Below are positions 5,358 through 20,959 of a stretch of 25,324 bases of DNA, in pieces. The notes beneath the pieces were generated by a model, which had not been told where the DNA came from, searched no databases, and saw only the letters and a list, made by a program, of their open reading frames with translations. Origin of the DNA: a virus; IMG/VR virus record IMGVR_UViG_3300018428_000166, positions 1 to 25,324 of that record. One strand, given 5' to 3'. A program made the position numbers and the translations under genes. The number at the start of each line of letters is the position of its first letter. Position 1 is the stretch's first letter.

Positions 5358-5699
5358 ATGATTTTCATAAGTGATGCAGCTGATGCTCAAATTAGTGCGC
5401 TATGCACAGAGCATAACTGCTATGCTATCTCTTTAGGCATTAAAGGAGGTGGTTGTGCAGGCTTTGAATATGAGTGGGGAACTATACTCACTAAAGAAGG
5501 GGTGGAGCAAGGATCCTGGATCTTTGAATGTGAGGTAGGACATTTAGTTGTGGAACCTCACAGTCACCTTTTTTTGTTTGGCACTGAACTAGATTATGTA
5601 AAAAGCTTAGTTGGTTCAAGTTTTGAAATTCACAATCCTAATGCTAAGTCAGCGTGTGGTTGTGGCGTTAGTGTAAACTTTGATTTTATGGGACAATGA
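5358..5699 (+). CDS. A-type iron-sulphur carrier (HesB/IscA/SufA family)
   Basis: 113 aa, the normal family length. The three cluster-binding cysteines are all present: C33 in 'LGIKGGGCAGFEYEW', and C100 and C102 in 'NPNAKSACGCGVSVNF'. The 'GSSFEIHNPNA' block is also canonical. Family role: accepting and delivering Fe-S clusters to apoproteins. IscA-like genes have been noted in marine phages; here it is followed by a small membrane protein with ATGA coupling. Substrate (host or phage Fe-S protein) cannot be read from sequence. Confidence 0.9.
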   Translation: MIFISDAADAQISALCTEHNCYAISLGIKGGGCAGFEYEWGTILTKEGVEQGSWIFECEVGHLVVEPHSHLFLFGTELDYVKSLVGSSFEIHNPNAKSACGCGVSVNFDFMGQ

Positions 5700-7814: not shown

Positions 7815-8381
7815 ATGTTAGCTCCTTATCGAATATGGGAACATGCTGTTTCTGAAGATGCGTGTGATCATATTGTAGAACACGGATTATCTCAGACGCT
7901 TGATGCCGCTGAAATTATTCGTGGCGAAGAACAACTTGATTTAAGTATTAGACGCAGCAGCATTGCATGGATTCATGAACCGTGGATTAAAGAAATGCTA
8001 TTTTCACTAGGTCACAGCATTAATCGAGAAGCTTTTGGATTTGATCTCTACAGCGGACTAGGAACTTTTGATGTTCAGTTTACTCAGTATGCGCATAGCA
8101 GCGGCGATAAGTATGATTGGCATGTAGACACTGCCTTTGCACAACAAAAGCCTTCAGATAGAAAGCTAAGTTTAATTGTTCAACTCAGCGATCCCACAGA
8201 GTATAGCGGAGGACATCTACAGTTTAACATGACCGGCGAAAACCGTGCAGAACGCTTTGCAGATCTACCACGTGGAACGCTCATCGCCTTTCCTTCGTTC
8301 TTTTTACACTGCATTACTCCTATAACGTCAGGTACGCGACACTCGCTAGTTTCTTGGCTAGAAGGACCACTATGGAGATAG
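7815..8381 (+). CDS. 2OG-Fe(II) oxygenase, PKHD/prolyl-4-hydroxylase type
   Basis: 188 aa. The Fe(II) triad is complete: H103-x-D105 in 'YDWHVDTAF' and H165 in 'FFLHCITPI'. The 2-oxoglutarate Arg is R175 in 'GTRHSLVSW'. The double-stranded beta-helix strands are visible ('LSLIVQLSD', 'GGHLQFN', 'GTLIAFPS'). Such enzymes hydroxylate protein side chains or small molecules using O2 and 2-oxoglutarate. Homologues are frequent in marine phages with unknown substrates. The ribosome site (AAGGA) of the next gene lies in its 3' end. Confidence 0.9.
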   Translation: MLAPYRIWEHAVSEDACDHIVEHGLSQTLDAAEIIRGEEQLDLSIRRSSIAWIHEPWIKEMLFSLGHSINREAFGFDLYSGLGTFDVQFTQYAHSSGDKYDWHVDTAFAQQKPSDRKLSLIVQLSDPTEYSGGHLQFNMTGENRAERFADLPRGTLIAFPSFFLHCITPITSGTRHSLVSWLEGPLWR

Positions 8382-9738: not shown

Positions 9739-9840
9739 TTCGAAGTATTCATTTAAATTCAAAACTTTCAACTGTAATTCTAAAGATTCATCTAATTCTA
9801 ACCTAATTCTAGTATCAAAAGCAAGCTATAGGCGTCCTAA

Positions 9841-9920
9841 GGGTGAGACGAAGATCTCATGAGGGGGTGTCGGGTTGTAACGACGAAACGAAGATTTCGT
9901 TAGGGGGTTAGGTTTTCATT
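9841..9920 (+). ncRNA. Twin-hairpin structured RNA candidate (40-nt tandem unit)
   Basis: Two units 40 nt apart share an identical CGAAGA hexaloop (9849-9854 and 9889-9894) and a following GAGGGGGT/TAGGGGGT tail. The stems differ but both pair: TGAGA/TCTCA in unit 1 and ACGAAA/TTTCGT in unit 2. This is compensatory change, the hallmark of conserved RNA structure. It lies downstream of the promoter at 9629, so it may be part of that transcript. The TTAGGGGGTTA at 9900-9910 is perfectly complementary to the 5' leader of the leftward gene ending at 10159. Confidence 0.6.
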
Positions 9921-10646: not shown

Positions 10647-10970
10647 TTAAGCGGCGGCTTGCAACTTCGCAATAAGCGAAGTCAGCGCAGGCTTAGTCGC
10701 ACCGGTGAAACCGGTAACATCAAAGCCAACGATCGCCTCAAGATCATTCAACAGTTCCTTCTTTGAAGGACCTTGATCTTTAGGCGCAGCCTTGGCTTTA
10801 GGTGTAGCCACATAAACGCCTTCACGTACAAGCTTAGACCGTACTGAACGTACAGATTTGCTGACCGCAGCAGCAATATCTTCCAAGCCTTCATTACCGA
10901 GCTCAGAATACATTTCAGTGATAGTTGCGACTTGTGCGTCAGTGTAGTTTACAGTAGTGTTAGTAGCCAT
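10647..10970 (-). CDS. Putative HTH DNA-binding protein, paralogue 1 of 3
   Basis: 107 aa from the ATG at 10970 (AGAGAGG upstream); the longer frame upstream has no ribosome site and runs through the promoter. MATNTTVNYTDAQVATITEM, then 'LGNEGLEDIAAAVSKSVRSV' and 'RSKLVREGVYVATP', a likely helix-turn-helix ('KSVRSVRSKLVREGVY' as recognition part). The C-terminal half, 'GPSKKELLNDLEAIVGFDVT' then 'ALTSLIAKLQ', is a small helical domain. About half identical to the products of 12208-12534 and 13589-13915. More GC-rich codons than those copies. Transcription regulator inferred. Confidence 0.75.
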   Translation of the reverse strand: MATNTTVNYTDAQVATITEMYSELGNEGLEDIAAAVSKSVRSVRSKLVREGVYVATPKAKAAPKDQGPSKKELLNDLEAIVGFDVTGFTGATKPALTSLIAKLQAAA

Positions 10971-11042
10971 GTGAACCTCTCTAAATATTTGGCTATAGAG
11001 CTTGTTAGAGGCGCTCATTTCCCTCATCAACATAATCAATAT

Positions 11043-11153: not shown

Positions 11154-11183
11154 TTGACAACGCTATAGGCTTTCTACTATAAT
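11154..11183 (+). promoter_or_regulatory. Strong rightward sigma70 promoter, opposite to flanking genes
   Basis: Perfect consensus TTGACA (11154-11159) and TATAAT (11178-11183) with an 18-nt spacer. The only perfect hexamer pair I saw in the window. No reading frame follows on this strand; flanking genes run leftward. Confidence 0.85.
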
Positions 11184-11189
11184 AGTGGC

Positions 11190-11370
11190 GCTATTTTTCT
11201 ACTTCGAATAAGCACTAGTCCCCACGAAAACCGATAGTTGAACTACTACTTGCCCCGGCGCTGAATTAAAGTAGACTTGACTTTTGCCGGGAGATAGATT
11301 GTTTTTCTACTTGCATTCGGGTAGTTGAACTACTACTATAGGCGGCGCTGAAAGCGCCTATTTCAATTTT
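11190..11370 (+). ncRNA. Small noncoding RNA candidate with internal repeats
   Basis: About 180 nt from the expected start of the strong promoter to a hairpin GGCGCT-GAA-AGCGCC (11344-11358) followed by TATTTCAATTTT. No ATG occurs on this strand. Two internal sequence pairs recur in the same order: TTTTTCTACTT (near 11193 and 11298) and TAGTTGAACTACTACT (near 11232 and 11322). The latter forms a small GTAGT-TGA-ACTAC hairpin. The region is not tRNA-like. Transcription is inferred from the promoter. The rest of the 10970-11448 gap holds only the dyad, the hairpin and one palindromic element. Confidence 0.55.
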
Positions 11371-11400
11371 AAGTTGTGGCGAGCCCAAAAAGTCCAATAA

Positions 11401-11449
11401 AATCAAAGGGTTAGCAGGCGGGGCGCCCAAGGGCCTAAGCCCTTGATTT
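11401..11449. repeat. GC-cored palindromic element (copy 1)
   Basis: AATCAAAGGGTTAG, GC core, CTAAGCCCTTGATTT: inverted arms separated by GCAGGCGGGGCGCCCAAGGG. Overlaps the stop of the gene at 11448, so it may serve as its 3' hairpin. Member of the recurrent element family of the leftward block. Confidence 0.8.
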
Positions 11450-11657
11450 AGTTGAACAATTCTGTAAGGTCTTGATCGCTAAAAAAGTCTTGTGCCTCTA
11501 AGCATATCAGTGCGCCTTCTTCTGCACTAAGACCATCATCATAAGCATCTCGGCTCAACCAATCTGCCATGCAACCTTGATCTAGCCCGACCTTCTTAAC
11601 CAAGATCCGATCGACCTCTGCAGACCATTCTTTGTAAGTGTTTGACAGTTTATTCAT
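11448..11657 (-). CDS. Small acidic phage protein
   Basis: 69 aa from ATG 11657 (AAGGGG upstream, 8-nt overlap with the previous gene); the longer in-frame ATG at 11735 lies inside that gene. 'WSAEVDRILVKKVGLDQGCM', 'WLSRDAYDDGLSAEEGALIC', 'AQDFFSDQDLTELFN'. The D-A-[YW]-D-x-G-x-[ST]-x-E-E-x-A pattern occurs in small phage proteins of unknown function. Confidence 0.75.
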   Translation of the reverse strand: MNKLSNTYKEWSAEVDRILVKKVGLDQGCMADWLSRDAYDDGLSAEEGALICLEAQDFFSDQDLTELFN

Positions 11658-11859
11658 AATAAGTAACCCCTTTTCCTGCTGGTGGAAGTGATCTCCAGAA
11701 CTCAGCAGCCCGTTGTTGCTGTTCTGGCGTTTCATAAGGACAGCCTTCTAAATTGCAAGGCATAGCAATTTTGTGCGGTTTGTTATCTGTCTCAGCATAT
11801 AGATTTATGCCGCAAACAACACATTTTCCAATGGCTTTCCATTCAACTCGTCTTGCCAT
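11650..11859 (-). CDS. Small zinc-binding protein
   Basis: 69 aa: 'IGKCVVCGINLYAETDNKPH' then 'MPCNLEGCPYETPEQQQRAA'. Two Cys pairs (C-x-x-C and C-x4-C) suggest a treble-clef or ribbon zinc site, followed by a helical tail. AAGGAG upstream; first gene of a two-gene unit with 11448-11657. Confidence 0.7.
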   Translation of the reverse strand: MARRVEWKAIGKCVVCGINLYAETDNKPHKIAMPCNLEGCPYETPEQQQRAAEFWRSLPPAGKGVTYYE

Positions 11860-11878
11860 GATGTTTCTCCTTTTGCAC

Positions 11879-11907
11879 GTTATGCCATAAAGTTAATTAT
11901 GTTTCAA
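11879..11907 (-). promoter_or_regulatory. Leftward promoter
   Basis: Minus strand TTGAAA (11907-11902), 17-nt spacer, CATAAC (11884-11879), for the gene starting at 11859. Confidence 0.6.
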
Positions 11908-11924
11908 TAGTAAAAAAGTTAGTT

Positions 11925-11984
11925 AATATCAATAAGTTAAAGAGTAGGGGGCCCCGGGGGCTAACCCTTTGATATTAAAGGGTT
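11925..11984. repeat. GC-cored palindromic element (copy 2) with added hairpin
   Basis: AATATCAATAAGTTAA, core GGGGGCCCCGGGGG, CTAACCCTTTGATATT. The right arm also forms its own hairpin AACCCTTT-GATATT-AAAGGGTT followed by ATTTTTG, a possible terminator on the plus strand. Lies after the gene ending at 12007. Confidence 0.7.
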
Positions 11985-12006
11985 ATTTTTGTTTACCCCT
12001 TTTGCC

Positions 12007-12174
12007 TTATGGCCAATCTTGCTCTTGATCAAGACGCCATTCTGCTAGCTCCCTGTCAGAGTAATCTTGCCAGTAAAGAAACCTCCATTCAGATGGTATC
12101 TTATCGGTGTTCTCCACCTGAATAAGGGTTTCAGTGCCGCATTCATCAAGACAGATAGCATTTCTTAAGTTCAT
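12007..12174 (-). CDS. Small hypothetical protein
   Basis: 55 aa from ATG 12174 with GGGAG upstream: MNLRNAICLDECGTETLIQV, then 'DKIPSEWRFLYWQDYSDREL', ending 'RLDQEQDWP'. Follows paralogue 2 by 33 nt and probably shares its transcript. Unrecognised. Confidence 0.65.
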   Translation of the reverse strand: MNLRNAICLDECGTETLIQVENTDKIPSEWRFLYWQDYSDRELAEWRLDQEQDWP

Positions 12175-12207
12175 AACAAAACTCCCATAAGGTTAGGTGA
12201 GAGAAGC

Positions 12208-12534
12208 CTAAGCTTCTCTCAATTGTTTAGCAAAATCGATCATAGAAAGCAAGCCTTCTTTAGTCGATCCTGACAAAGGCGTGACGTCAAAGCCACATAC
12301 AGCTTCTAGCTCATAAAGAAGCTCTTTTTTGGTAGGTCCTCGATCAAGAAGAACCCCCTTCTTTTTGGGTGTCGCTTTGTACACCCCTTCCCTTACCAAT
12401 TTAGACCGCACAGAACGAACTGATTTTCCAACTGCGCTAGCAATTTCTGAAAGACCATCATTGCCTAATGTATCATACATCCGGACAATTTGGTTAGTTT
12501 GTTCAACGGTATAATTGACAGTTTTAGTAGCCAT
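12208..12534 (-). CDS. Putative HTH DNA-binding protein, paralogue 2 of 3
   Basis: 108 aa: MATKTVNYTVEQTNQIVRMY, 'LGNDGLSEIASAVGKSVRSV', 'RSKLVREGVYKATPKKKG', then 'GPTKKELLYELEAVCGFDVT' and 'PLSGSTKEGLLSMIDFAKQL'. The central KSVRSVRSKLVREGVY is identical in all three paralogues. GGAGG precedes the start. It has its own promoter with the conserved upstream arm. Regulator of the leftward block is a hypothesis. Confidence 0.75.
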   Translation of the reverse strand: MATKTVNYTVEQTNQIVRMYDTLGNDGLSEIASAVGKSVRSVRSKLVREGVYKATPKKKGVLLDRGPTKKELLYELEAVCGFDVTPLSGSTKEGLLSMIDFAKQLREA

Positions 12535-12564
12535 ATAAGCACCTCCATTAATTGACTGTAACTC

Positions 12565-12593
12565 ACCCTACCTCAGAAATGATCTGCAGTCAA
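12565..12593 (-). promoter_or_regulatory. Leftward promoter of paralogue 2
   Basis: Minus strand TTGACT (12593-12588), 17-nt spacer, TAGGGT (12570-12565). The conserved arm begins 8 nt upstream of the -35. Confidence 0.75.
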
Positions 12594-12601
12594 GCAGAAA
12601 A

Positions 12602-12661
12602 AACCCTTTAAAAACAAGCACTTAGCCGCGGGGGCGCCCCCTTCCGTAAGTGTTTGATATT
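12602..12661. repeat. GC-cored palindromic element (copy 3)
   Basis: Left arm AACCCTTTAAAAACAAGCAC-TTAG, core CCGCGGGGGCGCCCCCTTC, right arm CGTAAGTGTTTGATATT. Separates the gene ending at 12668 from the promoter at 12565-12593. Confidence 0.85.
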
Positions 12662-12667
12662 GAACAA

Positions 12668-12949
12668 CTAAATCGCTGTTAATTGTTCAATTTTAGGGTT
12701 CACATTCTCACAAAGCCAAGTGACAGCCTCTTGCCAACTTTTAAATGGCTTGTCCGTATCATGGTTTCCAGTCAGCCAAATGCAATCGTCCGCTTCATCA
12801 TAGCAAACAATTTCAAAGTTGCTATTTTCTTCTATTGTGCCGTAACAGTCACATTTACCCCCATCGGGTCTATCTATTAGTAGATAAGCCATTTCACCTC
12901 CCATGCGCTTATTGTGGCTTTCAAGCATTGTATCATAAGTATATTCCAT
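12668..12949 (-). CDS. Hypothetical protein
   Basis: 93 aa from ATG 12949 (AGAGG overlapping the stop of the previous gene). An internal ATG at 12892 has the stronger GGGAGG and would give 74 aa starting MAYLLIDRPDGGKCDCYGTI; either start is possible. Continues 'FEIVCYDEADDCIWLTGNHD' and 'PFKSWQEAVTWLCENVNP'. Small alpha/beta domain, family not recognised. Coupled to the HAD phosphatase gene. Confidence 0.65.
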   Translation of the reverse strand: MEYTYDTMLESHNKRMGGEMAYLLIDRPDGGKCDCYGTIEENSNFEIVCYDEADDCIWLTGNHDTDKPFKSWQEAVTWLCENVNPKIEQLTAI

Positions 12950-12957
12950 CACAACCT

Positions 12958-13413
12958 CTAGTTGATTTTTGCGGGATCTAGTACCGCAATTCCAATTTTG
13001 CGGAGAGCTGACCGAACACTCATAGCATCATCAAACATCACTTTTGAAGCCTTTTTAAATTGGCGGAGACTTAAAAAGGATGAAAGCTGTTTTGCTTTCA
13101 GTGATCCGTCAGCTTCCATATTCCCGACTGGACGAGAAATGATTTTATCAGCAATCATATTGTGAAACTTCAAAAACTCATAATCCGCTTCTGACATATT
13201 TCTAGCTGTGCAGATTATGACGTAATCGCCTTTTTCTTTACGATTGCTGATTTCTTTAGCCAAAGGCAAAATTTTGTCTTTAGCAATTTTTTCTGGAGTA
13301 GCATTATCAAACCAATGCGCTAAATTAAGAGTACCATCAGCAAGAGTAGCTTGACGGTGAGAACTATCAATGCAGGTTCCGTCTAGGTCGAAAATAGAAA
13401 TGTTTTTAATCAT
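12958..13413 (-). CDS. HAD-superfamily phosphatase (PNKP-like)
   Basis: 151 aa. HAD motif I FDLDGT (D9 nucleophile, D11), motif II Thr69 in 'VIICTARN', motif III Lys in 'DGSLKAKQL', motif IV D128-D129 in 'VMFDDAMSVRSALRKIGI'. The size and the 'ICTAR...' and 'FDDA..V' blocks resemble the phosphatase domain of phage polynucleotide kinase/phosphatases, acting on nucleic-acid or nucleotide phosphates. No kinase domain is attached. GGAGG precedes the start. Confidence 0.85.
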   Translation of the reverse strand: MIKNISIFDLDGTCIDSSHRQATLADGTLNLAHWFDNATPEKIAKDKILPLAKEISNRKEKGDYVIICTARNMSEADYEFLKFHNMIADKIISRPVGNMEADGSLKAKQLSSFLSLRQFKKASKVMFDDAMSVRSALRKIGIAVLDPAKIN

Positions 13414-13435
13414 GGATAAATCCTCCTTATGCCTA

Positions 13436-13464
13436 TTAATAACCTAAAAAAACCATAAAGTCAA
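13436..13464 (-). promoter_or_regulatory. Leftward promoter of the HAD gene
   Basis: Minus strand TTGACT (13464-13459), 17-nt spacer, TATTAA (13441-13436); the conserved arm begins 9 nt upstream. Confidence 0.7.
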
Positions 13465-13473
13465 GAGAAAAGA

Positions 13474-13531
13474 ATCGTTTAAAATCAAGGACTTAGCTCG
13501 CGGGGGCCCCGGCCCCTAAGTGCTTGATATT
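13474..13531. repeat. GC-cored palindromic element (copy 4)
   Basis: Left arm ATCGTTTAAAATCAAGGACT-TAG, core CTCGCGGGGGCCCCGGCCC, right arm CTAAGTGCTTGATATT. Lies between the terminator of paralogue 3 and the HAD promoter. Confidence 0.85.
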
Positions 13532-13557
13532 AAACACTTTTTTGCGGGCAGATTAAA

Positions 13558-13581
13558 GGGGCAAGGCTGCAACCTTGCCCC
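13558..13581 (-). terminator. Terminator of paralogue 3
   Basis: GGGGCAAGG / CCTTGCCCC 9-bp stem with a 6-nt loop, followed on the minus strand by TTTAATC. Starts 7 nt after the stop codon of the gene at 13589. Confidence 0.75.
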
Positions 13582-13588
13582 TCATAGT

Positions 13589-13915
13589 TTATGACGCCAA
13601 CTTAGACGCGAATGCAATCAGAGATTGCAAACCCTCTTTTGTTGACCCAGAAAGCGGTGTGACATCAAAGCCAACCATTTCTTCGAGCTGATTGAGCAAC
13701 TCTTTTTTGGTTGGGCCTTGATCTCGCTTAGGAGATGCAGCTTTCGGGGTTGCGACATAAACACCCTCACGGACGAGTTTTGAGCGAACAGAGCGGACAG
13801 ATTTGCCCACCGCGTCGGATATATCTTGCAAACCATCATTGCCGAGGGTTGCATACATTTCAACGATTTGCTCAACTTGAGCGTCAGTGTAGTTTGCAGT
13901 TTTAGATGTAGCCAT
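13589..13915 (-). CDS. Putative HTH DNA-binding protein, paralogue 3 of 3
   Basis: 108 aa: MATSKTANYTDAQVEQIVEM, 'LGNDGLQDISDAVGKSVRSV', 'RSKLVREGVYVATPKAAS', then 'GPTKKELLNQLEEMVGFDVT' and 'PLSGSTKEGLQSLIAFASKL'. The C-terminal part is closest to paralogue 2, the linker ('VATPK') to paralogue 1. AGGAGG precedes the start; it has its own promoter and its own terminator, so it is monocistronic. A longer ORF covering it in another frame is a shadow. Confidence 0.75.
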   Translation of the reverse strand: MATSKTANYTDAQVEQIVEMYATLGNDGLQDISDAVGKSVRSVRSKLVREGVYVATPKAASPKRDQGPTKKELLNQLEEMVGFDVTPLSGSTKEGLQSLIAFASKLAS

Positions 13916-13951
13916 GTCAGGCCTCCTTTTTTATTGAGGGTTAATATAATA

Positions 13952-13980
13952 TTTATAGCGTTAAAAAAACCAAAATGCAA
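13952..13980 (-). promoter_or_regulatory. Leftward promoter of paralogue 3
   Basis: Minus strand TTGCAT (13980-13975), 17-nt spacer, TATAAA (13957-13952); the conserved arm begins 9 nt upstream of the -35. Confidence 0.75.
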
Positions 13981-13989
13981 GAAAAAAGA

Positions 13990-14013
13990 ATCTTTTAAAA
14001 ACAACGACTTAGC
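13990..14013 (-). repeat. Conserved promoter-upstream arm without its partner
   Basis: ATCTTTTAAAAACAACGACT-TAGC as a single arm with no GC core or right arm of its own, 9 nt upstream of the -35 of paralogue 3. It shows that the arm is kept next to promoters even when the palindrome is absent. Confidence 0.75.
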
Positions 14014-14031
14014 AATTTCTTTCAAATAAAA

Positions 14032-14091
14032 AACCCTTTAAAAACAAGCACTTAGCGGGCGGGGGGCCCCGCCCCGCAACCCCTTGATTTT
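14032..14091. repeat. GC-cored palindromic element (copy 5)
   Basis: Left arm AACCCTTTAAAAACAAGCAC-TTAG, core CGGGCGGGGGGCCCCGCCCC, right arm CAACCCCTTGATTTT. Its right edge touches the stop codon of the 33-residue gene. Confidence 0.85.
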
Positions 14092-14191
14092 AAAAGAAAA
14101 CTAAGTATAGAACACCTCCGAGAACAACAGTTTCTGACACTATAGAATAGCAGATGTAAGCCTTTAGGATATAAGGTAATATTTTTTTCAT
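14090..14191 (-). CDS. 33-residue membrane peptide
   Basis: The first residues are MKKILPYILKAYICYSIVSE and it ends 'TVVLGGVLYLVFF', a mostly hydrophobic peptide with a basic N-terminus. Consensus GGAGG 8 nt upstream. Follows the exonuclease gene by 15 nt and probably shares its transcript. Confidence 0.6.
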   Translation of the reverse strand: MKKILPYILKAYICYSIVSETVVLGGVLYLVFF

Positions 14192-14206
14192 GCTAGAACC
14201 TCCAAA

Positions 14207-14911
14207 TTATGCGGCGAGGGATTGAGTGCCATCAATCCCAAGTCTCAGGTTGATATTACGCCAAACTGAACCCGAAAACTCAGAAGGCTTTGAAACAATA
14301 GGCAAAACTTTTTTGCGGTTAAGTGCCTTTAGCAATATGTCGCTTTCGATCAAGCAATCATGCCATGCAATGTGGCGTTCTTCAAAATCCTCTTGCATAA
14401 ATTCCCAACGGTAGGCGCTTTGTGCAGAGGTGGAAAGATATTTGCCAGAGGCAGAAGGCACAGCTTTATAACCAAGCGGAACACTTTGACCCCAGAAATC
14501 CCAAATGTCCATGAGAGGAAAAGCAGCATCTAGCCAACGTGCAGAAGTATCCTCTTGCAAAATTTGCAAAGTGCGAGGCAGGTGCGTAAAATCAAAACGT
14601 GCATTATAGGCGCACAAAATGACTTTGTGACCTTTTGCAGCTAGAGCAGCAATTTGCGAGTTGTATTCTGCGCGAACGTCAACAATAGACGCAGGCACGA
14701 TTTTGTGCTCATATGCGTCATCAAAATAATGACCCATCTTTTTAGCGAAAAAAGGCATATCGTGCTTGAACGCTTCGCGGATAACATAGGAACCAGAACC
14801 ATATTCCCGACCTTTACGGTCAATAATGCGCCAAGCAACATCGAATGCAATACGCTTACGCATGGTAGTTTCAATATCGGTGACGACAAAAAGAGTGGGC
14901 TTGAAAGGCAT
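14207..14911 (-). CDS. DnaQ-like 3'-5' exonuclease (DEDDh family)
   Basis: 234 aa. Exo I: D12-x-E14 in 'VVTDIETTMRKRI'. Exo II: N103-x3-D107 in 'LCAYNARFDF'. Exo III: H180-x4-D185 in 'ERHIAWHDCLIESDILLKAL'. These are the metal-binding residues of RNase T/DnaQ-type exonucleases, which remove 3' nucleotides from DNA or RNA. No polymerase domain is attached. The C-terminal 40 residues ('SEFSGSVWRNINLRLGIDG') are outside the core. Own promoter with the conserved arm. Confidence 0.85.
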   Translation of the reverse strand: MPFKPTLFVVTDIETTMRKRIAFDVAWRIIDRKGREYGSGSYVIREAFKHDMPFFAKKMGHYFDDAYEHKIVPASIVDVRAEYNSQIAALAAKGHKVILCAYNARFDFTHLPRTLQILQEDTSARWLDAAFPLMDIWDFWGQSVPLGYKAVPSASGKYLSTSAQSAYRWEFMQEDFEERHIAWHDCLIESDILLKALNRKKVLPIVSKPSEFSGSVWRNINLRLGIDGTQSLAA

Positions 14912-14938
14912 AATAATTTCTCCGTTGTTACATCTGCC

Positions 14939-14967
14939 ACCCTACAGGAATGTCAAACCCCTGTCAA
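14939..14967 (-). promoter_or_regulatory. Leftward promoter of the exonuclease gene
   Basis: Minus strand TTGACA (14967-14962), 17-nt spacer, TAGGGT (14944-14939); the same -10 as the paralogue 2 promoter. The conserved arm begins 10 nt upstream. Confidence 0.8.
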
Positions 14968-14977
14968 GCAGAAAAAA

Positions 14978-15036
14978 ACTGTTTAAAATCAAGGACTTAG
15001 CGGCGGGGGGCTCGCGGGGTGTAACCCCTTGATTTT
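14978..15036. repeat. GC-cored palindromic element (copy 6)
   Basis: Left arm ACTGTTTAAAATCAAGGACT-TAG, core CGGCGGGGGGCTCGCGGGG, right arm TAACCCCTTGATTTT, ending 1 nt before the stop of the gene at 15038. Confidence 0.85.
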
Positions 15037-15037
15037 A

Positions 15038-15259
15038 TTAAGGTTTCCATCCCTCCCAAACAGCTGCACGATATTTATTGTAAAGATCTTGTGCAACTTT
15101 TTTATGTTTAATGCGACGATCTATAATCTCAAATCCTTTATGGCTAACATTAACTAACCAAGATGTAACAACACCTTTACGATTACGCACCTCTTGAAGC
15201 TTAACGCGAACATCTGTGATACCGTTTGTTTGTGTGGAGAGAGTGTAGATATTAGCCAT
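15038..15259 (-). CDS. Small hypothetical protein
   Basis: 73 aa: MANIYTLSTQTNGITDVRVK, then 'VVTSWLVNVSHKGFEIIDRR' and 'LYNKYRAAVWEGWKP'. Basic, beta-rich with a C-terminal helix. GGAGG upstream. No family recognised. Own promoter with the conserved arm. Confidence 0.7.
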   Translation of the reverse strand: MANIYTLSTQTNGITDVRVKLQEVRNRKGVVTSWLVNVSHKGFEIIDRRIKHKKVAQDLYNKYRAAVWEGWKP

Positions 15260-15288
15260 GATAGACCTCCATGATATGAACTAACTAG

Positions 15289-15317
15289 ACTTTACATCTA
15301 TTCTATTATCTTGTCAA
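15289..15317 (-). promoter_or_regulatory. Leftward promoter
   Basis: Minus strand TTGACA (15317-15312), 17-nt spacer, TAAAGT (15294-15289), for the gene starting at 15259; the conserved arm begins 9 nt upstream. Confidence 0.8.
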
Positions 15318-15326
15318 GAAGAAAAA

Positions 15327-15394
15327 ATCCTTTATTATCAATAACTTACGTGGCGGCGGTGCCGCTGCCCGTAACCCTTTGTTTTTAAAGGGTT
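15327..15394. repeat. GC-cored palindromic element (copy 7)
   Basis: Left arm ATCCTTTATTATCAATAACT-TACG, core TGGCGGCGGTGCCGCTGCC, right arm CGTAACCCTTTGTTTTT, which also pairs with the following AAAGGGTT. The arm changes (CTTACG with CGTAAC) keep pairing. Confidence 0.8.
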
Positions 15395-15408
15395 ATTTGG
15401 GCGCTGGG

Positions 15409-15522
15409 CTATTCCCACATTTCTAATACGAGATACATATAACTGTGAATCTCTAGTGCTGTTAGAGCTACCGCACACGCGGTAAACCCTAACAGAGCGA
15501 GGCCTATTACAAATCTAAACAT
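15409..15522 (-). CDS. 37-residue membrane peptide or lipoprotein-like
   Basis: MFRFVIGLALLGFTACAVAL, then 'TALEIHSYMYLVLEMWE'. 'LLGFTAC' resembles a lipobox but a plain membrane helix is equally possible. TGATG overlap with the DUF6899 gene indicates translational coupling. Confidence 0.6.
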   Translation of the reverse strand: MFRFVIGLALLGFTACAVALTALEIHSYMYLVLEMWE

Positions 15523-15812
15523 CAGTAATCAGCCCCTTGCAATTCGACTGAATACGCTTTGCCGTTTTCAGCCTCTTTTATTTCTTCATAAGGCGCACCA
15601 ATCTTGCGATACAACTCTAGCTTGCAACACTCAAGAGCGCCCATCATTTCATTTAGATACGCATAGCGTACACCATGAGTTTCTAAAAAGTTATTGATAA
15701 AGCTAGACACAAGCCAATTCAATTCCCCCGCATTATTAGGAACCCACTGGCAGCCTTGCTCCATCACAGCTTCATCAACGCGAGACCGGTCATCAACAGG
15801 AATATAAGGCAT
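15522..15812 (-). CDS. DUF6899-like phage protein
   Basis: 96 aa: MPYIPVDDRSRVDE, 'AGELNWLVSSFINNFLETHG', 'YAYLNEMMGALECCKLELYR', 'APYEEIKEAENGKAY'. The M-P-Y-I-P start, G-E-L-N-[WY], N-E-x-x-G-A-L-E and E-L-Y-R...P-Y-E...E-N-G blocks match the phage family DUF6899. Function unknown. AAGGAGG in the end of the previous gene; start overlaps its stop (TAATG). Confidence 0.8.
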   Translation of the reverse strand: MPYIPVDDRSRVDEAVMEQGCQWVPNNAGELNWLVSSFINNFLETHGVRYAYLNEMMGALECCKLELYRKIGAPYEEIKEAENGKAYSVELQGADY

Positions 15813-16303
15813 TACGCAACCTCCTTTCTGATAGAAGGAAAATTGATAGGAAGATCAAAAGCCAACTCAAGAAGTTTCGAAAACTCTTTAAGACCTGCTT
15901 CATGCAACTCTACAGCTTCCTTCGCACCTTCTATAAGGTCAGTGCTTTCTAGCCAATGCCAACCTTTGAAGTGTGTGAAAGCAACATCTGAAATTGCATT
16001 AGGTGCAATGCTTTTACACTTACCAACAGCATACACTGGCTTACCGCAACCATATGCCATTCCAATTTCAACTAACGCTCCGCGCTGTTCTTCTTCAAAA
16101 TCTTCGCAGTAAAGCAACACAAAATCACTATCGCGCACATCTTCATAGCAAAGATTCCACAGCTCATCTTTTTGATTTTGCACAAAATCACTGTCGTTGT
16201 CTAAGTCAATCCAACGAGCCTTAACATCAAATCCCAGATCATCACGTAGATGTTGGAATTTTTTATTGTGCCAAACTTTTCCGGCTGTATAGAATGTAGT
16301 CAT
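15812..16303 (-). CDS. Nucleoside 2-deoxyribosyltransferase-like protein
   Basis: 163 aa from ATG 16303. An in-frame ATG at 16324 would place the AAAGGAG ribosome site inside the coding region, so the shorter form is chosen. 'FYTAGKVWHNKKFQHLRDDL', 'ARWIDLD', 'DVRDSDFVLLYCEDFEEEQRG' and 'GALVEIGMAYGCGKPVYAVG' fit the family, with E79 in E-I-G-M-A as the probable catalytic Glu. Relatives exchange or hydrolyse the base of (deoxy)nucleosides and are frequent in phages for nucleotide salvage. The exact reaction is not determined. Confidence 0.8.
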   Translation of the reverse strand: MTTFYTAGKVWHNKKFQHLRDDLGFDVKARWIDLDNDSDFVQNQKDELWNLCYEDVRDSDFVLLYCEDFEEEQRGALVEIGMAYGCGKPVYAVGKCKSIAPNAISDVAFTHFKGWHWLESTDLIEGAKEAVELHEAGLKEFSKLLELAFDLPINFPSIRKEVA

Positions 16304-16335
16304 AAGATTTTCTCCTTTTATCATCTTATATTTTA

Positions 16336-16364
16336 GTTATGGCATACTTTTAAACTCTTTGCAA
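16336..16364 (-). promoter_or_regulatory. Leftward promoter of the deoxyribosyltransferase-like gene
   Basis: Minus strand TTGCAA (16364-16359), 17-nt spacer, CATAAC (16341-16336); the conserved arm begins 10 nt upstream. Same -10 as the 11859 promoter. Confidence 0.65.
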
Positions 16365-16374
16365 CCCCTAAAAA

Positions 16375-16433
16375 ATCGTTTAAAATCAACCACTTAGCGG
16401 CGGGGGCCCGGCGCCCCCTAAGCCATTGAAATT
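16375..16433. repeat. GC-cored palindromic element (copy 8)
   Basis: Left arm ATCGTTTAAAATCAACCACT-TAG, core CGGCGGGGGCCCGGCGCCCC, right arm CTAAGCCATTGAAATT. Ends 10 nt from the stop of the gene at 16444. Confidence 0.85.
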
Positions 16434-16443
16434 ACACGCTTTT

Positions 16444-16569
16444 TTACACCGCCTCTGCTACAAGTTGCACTGCTACCCATCCTGCGCAAACGCATAGTAG
16501 AGTTACAACTAAAGTCACCCAAAACTCTTTTATAGCGAATTGAGTTTTTACAATATCTAGAAGTCTCAT
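16444..16569 (-). CDS. Small membrane protein
   Basis: 41 aa: MRLLDIVKTQFAIKEFWVTL then 'VVTLLCVCAGWVAVQLVAEAV', one membrane helix. AAGGAGG upstream; the start overlaps the previous stop (ATGA). Third gene of a micro-operon. Confidence 0.7.
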   Translation of the reverse strand: MRLLDIVKTQFAIKEFWVTLVVTLLCVCAGWVAVQLVAEAV

Positions 16570-17054: not shown

Positions 17055-17076
17055 GCTAAGTCCTTGTTTTTAAAGG
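17055..17076 (+). repeat. Conserved arm in reversed orientation (rightward)
   Basis: GCTAAGTCCTTGTTTTTAAA-GG on the plus strand, the same sequence that precedes leftward promoters on the minus strand. Here it lies 46 nt upstream of the -35 of the rightward HNH gene, so orientation follows the gene served. Confidence 0.75.
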
Positions 17077-17172: not shown

Positions 17173-17496
17173 ATGGCTAAAAAATCTCATATCCCCGCAA
17201 AAATCCGCAAAGCAGTATTTGCGCGCTTTGATTGCTGCGTCGCATGTGGTACATGGGACGCTGACGCTTGCGGGCATCTGATCGCAGAAGCCAACGGTGG
17301 CGCAATGGTTGCCGAAAATTTTGTGCGTCTCTGCAACCGCTGCAACCAATTGCAAGGCACGGCGACTGCTGCTTTCCGCGCATATGCTACCTATACAGAA
17401 AGCCGCGCTGAGATTGAAAGCCGCCGCGCCTATTGGGCAAAGTATTGCCGCGCCGCTGCTGCTGGTATCGCCAAACCTTACCGGCCCTTGGACTAG
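17173..17496 (+). CDS. HNH-type nuclease-like zinc protein
   Basis: 107 aa. 'IPAKIRKAVFARFDCCVACG' then 'ACGHLIAEANGGAMVAENF' and 'VRLCNRCNQLQGT' give the C-x-x-C / H35 / N49 / C54-x-x-C57-N58 layout of HNH treble-clef proteins. The usual D-H before the loop is C-G-H, so catalytic competence is uncertain. The C-terminal 40 residues are Ala/Arg rich. Base composition is clearly more GC-rich than the neighbours, suggesting recent transfer. Perfect AGGAGG upstream. Confidence 0.8.
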   Translation: MAKKSHIPAKIRKAVFARFDCCVACGTWDADACGHLIAEANGGAMVAENFVRLCNRCNQLQGTATAAFRAYATYTESRAEIESRRAYWAKYCRAAAAGIAKPYRPLD

Positions 17497-17716: not shown

Positions 17717-18478
17717 ATGATTGAAGAATTATCTTTCTTAGAAAGAAGTTTGTTACTAGCAAGACTAGCAAACACTTCTTACAGAGATGAAGCTTCTGCA
17801 CGTAAAAGAGGTCAACAGTTAGGTTTTACTGAAATTACTTTTTTAAACCGTGACGGAGCGCAAGCCTATTGCTTTTCAAGCAAAGACGATTTAGTTATTG
17901 CGTGTCGGGGTACTGAACCAGGTGAATGGAATGATGTTCGTGCAGATTTACGTGCCGCACTAGTAGCAGCAGAAACAGTAGGTCGTGTGCACCGTGGCTT
18001 TAAACAAGAGTGTGATGATCTATGGACTTTAATTGTTCCTCATTTACGTACTGCTGGTACTCGTAAAGTGTGGTTTTGTGGACACTCGCTAGGAGCGGCA
18101 ATGGCAACAATCTTGGCATCTCGTTGTCAGCATGATATAATATTACCAGAGGTTGCAGAATTATACACTTATGGATCTCCTCGTGTAGGTAATAATCGCT
18201 TTTGCAATGCTTTATGCGTTACCCATCATCGTTGGGTCAATAATAATGATATTGTTACTCGCGTACCTCTTTGGCTTATGGGCTATCGGCATGATGGTCG
18301 TGAGCACTATATTAGTTCGCGTGGAACACTAAGCGCTAGTGCAGGTCTGCGCCGGGCGTGGGATCGACTAAGAGGCATAGCCTTAGGGCTTGTACGCCTT
18401 CGTTTTGATTCTATTGCAGATCATTCTATGCCTGGATATGTAGTAACGCTTGAACGCATAGTAAGAGGAGGTGCATAA
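17717..18478 (+). CDS. Class 3 lipase (alpha/beta hydrolase)
   Basis: 253 aa. Nucleophile elbow G-H-S124-L-G in 'VWFCGHSLGAAMATILASRC', 'YTYGSPRVGNNRF' and D178 in 'WVNNNDIVTRVPL', and H236 in 'IADHSMPGY' form the lipase_3 triad. 'VIACRGTEPGEWNDVRADLR' supplies the oxyanion-hole strand. No signal peptide, so cytoplasmic unless released at lysis. May hydrolyse host lipids during infection or act in lysis; substrate unknown. AAAGGAG precedes the start. Confidence 0.88.
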   Translation: MIEELSFLERSLLLARLANTSYRDEASARKRGQQLGFTEITFLNRDGAQAYCFSSKDDLVIACRGTEPGEWNDVRADLRAALVAAETVGRVHRGFKQECDDLWTLIVPHLRTAGTRKVWFCGHSLGAAMATILASRCQHDIILPEVAELYTYGSPRVGNNRFCNALCVTHHRWVNNNDIVTRVPLWLMGYRHDGREHYISSRGTLSASAGLRRAWDRLRGIALGLVRLRFDSIADHSMPGYVVTLERIVRGGA

Positions 18479-19761: not shown

Positions 19762-19994
19762 AATGGTTAGTAGTAGTTATCTTTGCTACTATGCAAGGAG
19801 ATGTATATATTTTTACTGATCCAGTGTTTGATACGCGTGAAAGCTGTATAGCAAGCATTTATGACAGTGAACAAATGAAGCGTTATGTTCAAAAACTTGT
19901 TGTAGAGTATCAGCGCTTACTTCCTATTCGTGCGCTTAATTGCTTAGACGAACAAACTATAAACGACATACTAAATATACAGGATAATGCATGA
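19758..19994 (+). CDS. Small Cys-containing protein, paralogue family A (member 3)
   Basis: 78 aa: MKWLVVVIFATMQGDVYIFT, 'FDTRESCIASIYDSEQMKRY', 'LPIRALNCLDEQTIND'. Hydrophobic start, F-D-[ST]-x-x-x-C helix and a late Cys, as in 949-1224 and 3916-4116. Translationally coupled (ATGA on both sides) with the GAPDH gene. Confidence 0.75.
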   Translation: MKWLVVVIFATMQGDVYIFTDPVFDTRESCIASIYDSEQMKRYVQKLVVEYQRLLPIRALNCLDEQTINDILNIQDNA

Positions 19995-20959
19995 AAGTTG
20001 GTATAAACGGATTTGGTAGAATCGGGCGCTGTCTTGCTCGACATATAATGCAAGACAGAGATGATATGGAACTTGTACAAATAAATGCTAGTGGGCCTCC
20101 TGAACACCATATTCATCTTTTAAGTTATGATAGCGTGCATGGGCGATTTACGCCAAGAGAAGATTTAGCTTATAAAATAAACTGGAGTCAGTCACGCGAT
20201 GCTAGATTCTTAAGTTGGGAAGGCGTTGATTTAGTATTTGAGTGTACAGGTGTTTATAATGATGGTCGAATAGCCAGCGATCATATACGCTATGGACGTG
20301 CTGATCGTGTACTAATTAGTGCTCCTGCTGTAAATGTAGATCGTACAGTTGTATATGGTGTAAATGATCATGAGTTAAAATCGTCAGATCGTATTGTAAG
20401 CAATGCAAGCTGTACTACAAACTGTCTTGCACCTCTAGTTAAAGTGCTGCACGAGCAGTTTGGAATTGAAAGCGGACAGATGACTACAGTTCATAGTTAC
20501 ACAGGTGATCAAGGAACAATAGATAGAAGACATCGTGATATGTATCGTGCTCGTGCTGCTGGATCAAATATGATACCTACAAGCACTGGAGCTGCAAAGG
20601 CTTTAAAGCATGTTTATCCTGCACTCGAAGGTAAGATAATGGGCAGTGCTATACGTGTTCCTACACAAAATGTAAGCTGCGTAGATCTTACTGTTAATCT
20701 AAGGGTAGACGTAACCGAAGAACTTATCAATGATACAATGTACGTTGCAAGTCGTAACAAGTATGCAGGCATTATTGGTTATGAGCCTCTTCCTCTTGTA
20801 AGCAGCGATTTTAATACAACAAGCGAAAGCTGCATTTTTGCACCAGATCAAACAAGAATTGTTAATAAACACATGGTTCGGGTGCTCGCTTGGTATGATA
20901 ACGAATGGGCATTTAGTTGTCGAATGGCAGACGTTGGTGCTGCTATGTATAATTTTTAG
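19991..20959 (+). CDS. gap: Glyceraldehyde-3-phosphate dehydrogenase, probably NADP-preferring
   Basis: 322 aa, nearly full length (cellular enzymes about 335). Catalyses oxidative phosphorylation of glyceraldehyde 3-phosphate or the reverse. NAD(P)-binding INGFGRIGR (5-13). Catalytic C141 in 'SNASCTTNCLAP'; H168 in 'TTVHSYTGDQ'; 'RARAAGSNMIPTSTGAAKA'; 'IRVPTQN'; 'LAWYDNEWAFSCRM'. The Asp that usually follows N32 and fixes NAD specificity is Ala (A33 in 'INASGPPEH'). The usual Leu-Pro pair in the 'ILDLPHKD' region is R179-R180. Both changes favour NADP(H), as in GapB/plastid-type enzymes. ATGA-coupled to the upstream gene, so fully part of the phage operon. Confidence 0.95.
   Translation: MKVGINGFGRIGRCLARHIMQDRDDMELVQINASGPPEHHIHLLSYDSVHGRFTPREDLAYKINWSQSRDARFLSWEGVDLVFECTGVYNDGRIASDHIRYGRADRVLISAPAVNVDRTVVYGVNDHELKSSDRIVSNASCTTNCLAPLVKVLHEQFGIESGQMTTVHSYTGDQGTIDRRHRDMYRARAAGSNMIPTSTGAAKALKHVYPALEGKIMGSAIRVPTQNVSCVDLTVNLRVDVTEELINDTMYVASRNKYAGIIGYEPLPLVSSDFNTTSESCIFAPDQTRIVNKHMVRVLAWYDNEWAFSCRMADVGAAMYNF

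Follow-up and report, generated by a model that had tools for sequence, protein, structure and literature searches.

Inverted IHF-type motifs around a GC-rich core beside promoters and cassette boundaries in an uncultured phage fragment

Described systems and the locus compared

Among the closest described systems to the repeated element considered here are the promoter-early stem-loop (PeSL) cassettes of T4-type phages (Arbiol et al. 2010; Comeau et al. 2014; both cited in PMC4503421). Small composite elements of that kind are reported to bound non-essential early genes, to stand next to a sigma-70-like promoter and to serve as breakpoints for shuffling. The element in question recurs in IMG/VR virus record IMGVR_UViG_3300018428_000166, a 25,324-base fragment of an uncultured virus, called a marine phage and referred to at its full length as the window. 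Eight GC-cored paired elements, each about 48 bp from W to W, and two single arms separate the genes of the 11.4 to 16.4 kb region, where every convincing gene lies on the minus strand. They share with PeSL the composite layout, the early sigma-70-like promoter and the shuffling, and differ in that paired IHF-type sites surround a GC core of near-fixed length and a stem-loop terminator is unsupported. PeSL are assigned to T4-type phages, whereas the isolates nearest to the window by two proteins, the terminase small subunit and the tail terminator, are T5-like (roughly 25-35% identity). Megablast returned no close isolate.

IHF sites offer a second comparison. The H' site of lambda attP, and IHF sites more widely (WATCAANNNNTTR plus an A-tract), have an identical motif, N4 gap and tract position, but here the sites form inverted pairs round a GC core, at many promoters and without integrase arm sites. 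The RIB/RIP (BIME-1) elements of E. coli, which carry a single IHF site between REP palindromes and lie at the ends of transcription units, are also repeated intergenic elements combining palindromes with IHF sites; the window elements have no IHF site between REP palindromes, and their layout is the reverse, a GC core between two IHF-type sites beside phage promoters. The IB segment of IS5 activates glpFK through an IHF site with A-tracts, the effect depending on helical phase (PMC2753651; the IHF core of the synthetic site in that study is aatcaagcagtta). That segment, like the present arms, is a portable IHF/A-tract segment placed to act with phase dependence on a downstream sigma-70 promoter, activation being proposed here by analogy; it differs in being a lone IHF site about 215 nt upstream, in having no GC core, and in being transposon-borne and not repeated per gene. 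Halovirus HF2, a lytic virus, carries promoters in intergenic repeats, although the virus and its promoters are archaeal and paired IHF-type sites are not claimed for them (PMC8707807). No description of the paired arrangement was found in open-access papers.

Paired arms, IHF consensus and promoter distance

Taken jointly, the observations are probably best explained if the element is a DNA site composed of two inverted IHF-type (DNABII-family) sites and not an RNA hairpin. Outward from the core, each arm consists of YAA-N4-TTGATW and then a T-tract at +15 to +20; the reverse complement of the former is the IHF consensus, WATCAANNNNTTR (PMC5896051). The strict consensus occurs 13 times in the window against 2.6 expected (200 shuffles, maximum 7), 12 of these 13 being arms; it is present in 12 of the 18 window arms, and most of the remainder have an AAACAA variant. 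In a comparison set of 278 distinct elements from related viral contigs (most of them, like the window record, genome fragments), the conserved columns are the IHF-consensus columns and the N4 spacer varies. In 181 non-redundant flanks of elements with a 22-bp core, an A/T tract fills positions 15-20 after TTG and stops sharply at 21, just where lambda H' has its T6 tract; the flanks have, as looked for in an IHF site, an A/T tract 5' of WATCAA at the H' spacing. The left arm of element 8 (16384..16431, core 22) reads AAAAAA-N8-AATCAACCACTTA and lambda H' reads AAAAAA-N8-TATCAATTTGTTG, and the same pattern recovered H' and two further lambda attP sites as a positive control. Where lineages have cores of 16, 17, 23, 25 or 26, the tract is replaced in many outer flanks by a second consensus half in inverted orientation, giving a symmetric TTG-N5-CAA, which we take to place the expected kink steps about 9 bp apart, the DNABII geometry. 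Four-arm elements, having an extra inverted half-site outside each arm, were seen in L180, L131, L181, L126 and L198. A phage DNABII gene (PF00216) was not found in 47 element-bearing contigs by a search that was positive in 9 of 14 control genomes, and host IHF is therefore the presumed binder of the arm, here and wherever IHF is invoked below.

The earlier note on this sequence had counted eight full copies and two single arms, and re-derived coordinates bear this out. The pairing pattern with a GC-rich core was observed 8 times against 0.004 expected from 500 first-order Markov sequences. Nor are arms equally frequent away from promoters, the alternative which that note had raised: loose arms number 3.55 per kb within 11380-16450 and 0.30 per kb elsewhere in the window, a twelvefold difference. 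Besides element 8, the inverted IHF-type pairs are element 1 (11401..11448, a GC-rich core of 22 bp, with no clear promoter on its left side), element 2 (11927..11974, core 22), element 3 (12612..12659, core 22, the proximal arm being the AAACAA variant), element 4 (13483..13529, core 21), element 5 (14042..14089, core 22), element 6 (14987..15034, core 22) and element 7 (15336..15384, core 23). Of the single arms, TAAGTCGTTGTTT (13999..14011, minus strand) has a T-rich tract and no partner, and serves the promoter of gene 13915; TAAGTCCTTGTTT (17057..17069, plus strand) lies between divergent genes and has no -35 box at the usual distance. Behind the latter is a small HNH endonuclease-like gene (17173-17496, plus strand) that weakly matches the HNH portion of IscB.

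Seven transcription units in the window have sigma-70-like promoters, every spacer being exactly 17 nt, and in all seven the start of the -35 box lies 18 or 19 nt from the arm, counted from TTGATW. These minus-strand promoters belong to genes 12534 (12565..12593, TTGACT-17-TAGGGT, arm 18 nt away), 13413 (13436..13464, TTGACT-17-TATTAA, 18 nt), 13915 (13952..13980, TTGCAT-17-TATAAA, the single arm 18 nt away), 14911 (14939..14967, TTGACA-17-TAGGGT, 19 nt), 15259 (15289..15317, TTGACA-17-TAAAGT, 18 nt) and 16303 (16336..16364, TTGCAA-17-CATAAC, 19 nt), all six of which had been listed earlier with their 17-nt spacers and are confirmed, and to gene 11859 (11879..11907, TTGAAA-17-CATAAC, 19 nt), which had not. 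The statement that the arm ends 8-10 nt before the -35 box needs correction, the interval being 13-14 nt by the same arm definition (...TTTTAAA). The proposal of a portable promoter module stands, in that elements bound permuted cassettes (see below) with a constant 18-19 nt between the arm and strong -35 boxes of sigma-70-like type; the proposed role as upstream activator site is plausible, given that the arm fits an IHF site.

In 440 non-redundant flanks of related elements, promoter-like hexamer pairs are about 4 times as frequent as in shuffles, and the distance from arm to -35 box has its main peak at 18-19 nt and weaker peaks at 28 and 38-39 nt. A main peak with weaker ones displaced by one and two helical turns suggests IHF-assisted promoters. 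Beyond 24 nt the distances are periodic (vector strength 0.56 at 10.5 bp, n=32; p about 5e-5 as a rough estimate of our own, uncorrected for period scanning or relatedness), which suggests a helical-face requirement. As a mechanism, with the consensus halves facing the GC-rich core and the A/T-tracts facing outward, host IHF would bind the promoter-side arm, cover a strong sigma-70 promoter from roughly -70 to -40 and bend the DNA sharply, so that early transcription may be raised, stabilised or buffered; the T-tract would fall at the usual place of an UP element. Together with the core of near-fixed length, the second site would make a defined nucleoprotein unit which, as a conjecture, may separate neighbouring units. 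If this is true, lytic phages draw on a nucleoid protein of the host as the standard upstream component of whole batteries of early promoters, the same element is tied to the shuffling of gene cassettes, and concrete predictions follow: IHF dependence, 5/10-bp phasing and footprint positions.

The best-surviving rival, though an unlikely one, is that the arms are operators of a phage regulator, such as the small DNA-binding-like protein of PHROG 1725, and that the likeness to IHF sites is coincidental. Three PHROG 1725 paralogues are indeed encoded on the minus strand among the cassettes (10647-10973, 12208-12534, 13589-13915), and the symmetric four-arm forms found elsewhere would suit a dimeric regulator. 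The protein was, however, found in 6 of the 22 long element-bearing contigs searched and not in contigs (possibly incomplete) of 85-170 kb whose cores differ in length, and as a universal binder it was rejected on account of its absence from many element-bearing contigs. Coincidence would also have to produce an exact match to lambda H' in T-tract position and N4 pattern, and to do so in phages with little else in common.

Like many of its uncultured relatives, this phage appears to place the element ahead of nearly every early gene. Among the matches listed, GC-rich cores were present in 54 of 115 distinct viral matches and 4 of 117 bacterial ones, a contrast that points to a phage element. 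A motif BLAST for isolates carrying it gave arm-like matches only, and the strict paired element was absent from ten isolate genomes.

Folding tests and the GC-rich core

Next in order comes a PeSL-type composite, which is also improbable, in which the GC-cored palindrome would be an RNA stem-loop that terminates transcription of the upstream gene, coupled to the early promoter of the gene that follows. The layout of stop codon, palindrome and promoter agrees with it, as does the shuffling of the cassettes. Pairing tests do not. Across the 278 elements, core halves of the 22-bp class pair at 0.533, against 0.535 when halves are swapped between elements; of the 4 variable arm positions (N4), 2.03 pair, against 2.05 after swapping; and no single position pair shows pairing beyond noise. 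The minimum free energy (-15.36) equals that of half-swapped chimeras (-15.48) and of core-shuffled versions, a second tool gave 62.2% paired cells against 61.3% in shuffles, RNAalifold predicted no consensus structure, and a search of Rfam gave no match above gathering score. Covariation was likewise absent in orientation-controlled sets, the window's own lineage included, and an inner-outer arm hairpin in the four-arm forms was set aside for want of consistent covariation. Cores such as that of element 6 (GCGGCGGGGGGCTCGCGGGGTG) are not self-complementary, and a near-constant core length with drifting sequence is not something that a hairpin needs. A terminator scan instead places terminator-like hairpins elsewhere in the same intergenic stretches, at 12198-12221 and 13557-13582, the second of which is separate from element 4 and belongs to the gene ending 60 nt from it.

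Because covariation is missing, folding is at chimera level and no consensus emerges, a role as 3' hairpin or terminator, which the earlier note had proposed, is unsupported, and an RNA hairpin is rejected on the covariation, chimera and consensus-fold tests. Its compensated arm changes (for example in copy 7) do not exceed chance in the pairing tests on the 278 elements. A pairing core made only of G and C survives as a GC-rich core, its self-complementarity often failing, and a stop codon directly adjoins the distal arm in some copies and not in others, copy 4 among the latter. The apparent palindrome is, on this comparative evidence, two inverted copies of one conserved, putative protein-site motif, and the caution follows that protein sites in inverted orientation can be mistaken for hairpin terminators.

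The core itself has a length of 22 in 139 of the 278 related elements and is near-constant in length per genome, mostly 22 in the window and from 16 to 26 in other phages. Pairs of elements have the same length in 72% of cases within a locus against 25% overall, and on long contigs the elements, all of the same core length, crowd into one stretch of about 4-11 kb (for example, twelve elements of 22, nine of 25 and ten of 17). Mean identity between core sequences is 47%. Core length and GC content thus appear constrained, sequence much less so, and why one phage genome should keep one core length while core sequence drifts is the puzzle that this raises. The element adjoining the 15522 gene has a core of 23 in several relatives, as does element 7 in the window. 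In G001, G002, G004, G033 and G039 there is one core length each (23, 25, 22, 17 and 25, respectively) despite differing core sequences, and no partner setting the length was identified in these five.

Several points weigh against the paired IHF-type reading. No recognisable sigma-70 promoter lies near 180 of 274 related elements, and several arms read AAACAA where WATCAA is expected, one IHF position off. The GC core and its lineage-specific length are unexplained by IHF alone, and core lengths of 16-26 have no shared helical phase; a single helical phase between two IHF-type sites was rejected, these lengths giving different phases. Finally, folding as RNA is more stable than in dinucleotide shuffles for 7 of the 8 window copies (z -2.1 to -3.7), which also favours the PeSL-type composite, although such folding of single copies is attributable to the arms being conserved inverted motifs.

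Cassette order, recombination and neighbouring features

The cassettes of the window include gene B, encoding the PHROG 1725 protein (12208..12534), gene C, a HAD/PNKP-like phosphatase (12958..13413), and gene E of PHROG 20187, with no assigned function (14207..14911), all on the minus strand. The marker order in the window is a / A2 A / B / C2 C / D / E / G / F H / K, strokes marking divisions, whereas relatives about 75-85% identical at the DNA level have a A2 A / E / D / C2 C / B / F H / K. Thus B-C-D-E in the window corresponds to E-D-C-B in these relatives, with gene orientation unchanged throughout, and more distant relatives have further orders. Nearly every cassette boundary in the relatives bears an element, and in one relative (L045) the junction elements join flanks that sit at different elements in the window. 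The permutation is, as far as gene orders indicate, modular shuffling like that of PeSL cassettes, and homologous recombination between elements can account for it. Recombination at elements would permute the cassettes while each gene keeps its promoter, because an element of the same orientation lies at nearly every gene boundary. Mapping of crossovers inside the cores fails since the cores diverge too fast for crossovers to be placed.

A larger version of the paired IHF-type reading is doubtful, if the least so of the weaker proposals: the unit would both set early promoter output and joint the cassettes, its core length being read by a lineage-specific partner. It would then be a dedicated unit, widespread among uncultured large phages, and a joint for excision and reinsertion. 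Somewhat akin, and harder to credit, is the view that the elements are dedicated integron-like recombination sites, with IHF as an accessory for excision and reinsertion and promoter adjacency secondary. Cassette order changes with orientation kept and junctions within elements, and inverted sites around a core of lineage-specific length do resemble a crossover site, but the core greatly exceeds the usual spacer of a tyrosine recombinase in length, homologous recombination between repeats is enough, and promoter distance is tightly constrained. For comparison with the folded attC site of integron cassettes, no conserved fold was predicted, and no integrase was found among the searched proteins of the window, itself a genome fragment. 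No more probable is it that arm and T-tract form an UP element, or a stretch of A-tract curvature, touched by the RNA polymerase alpha subunit without IHF, for although the T-tract occupies the place of a proximal UP subsite, about 4-9 nt ahead of the -35 box, this leaves the conserved YAA-N4-TTGAT, the inverted arm away from the promoter and the near-fixed core length unexplained.

Elsewhere in the window, a promoter of perfect sigma-70 consensus (TTGACA-18-TATAAT) precedes about 190 nt in which no convincing gene lies (11154-11370, plus strand). This candidate small RNA has a 31-nt repeat (TAGTTGAACTACTACT...) and an end hairpin, GGCGCTGAAAGCGCC, followed by a T-rich run; Rfam gave no match above gathering score. 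Positions 9830-9915, in a non-coding stretch, hold two GA-rich hairpin-like units that resemble each other, gacgaagatctcatgaggggg and aacgaagatttcgttaggggg. Genes of metabolic type, all on the plus strand, encode a nucleotide-sugar epimerase/dehydratase (1237-2250), an IscA-like iron-sulfur protein (5358-5699), a 2OG-Fe(II) oxygenase (7815-8381), a lipase/esterase (17717-18478) and GAPDH (19991-20959).

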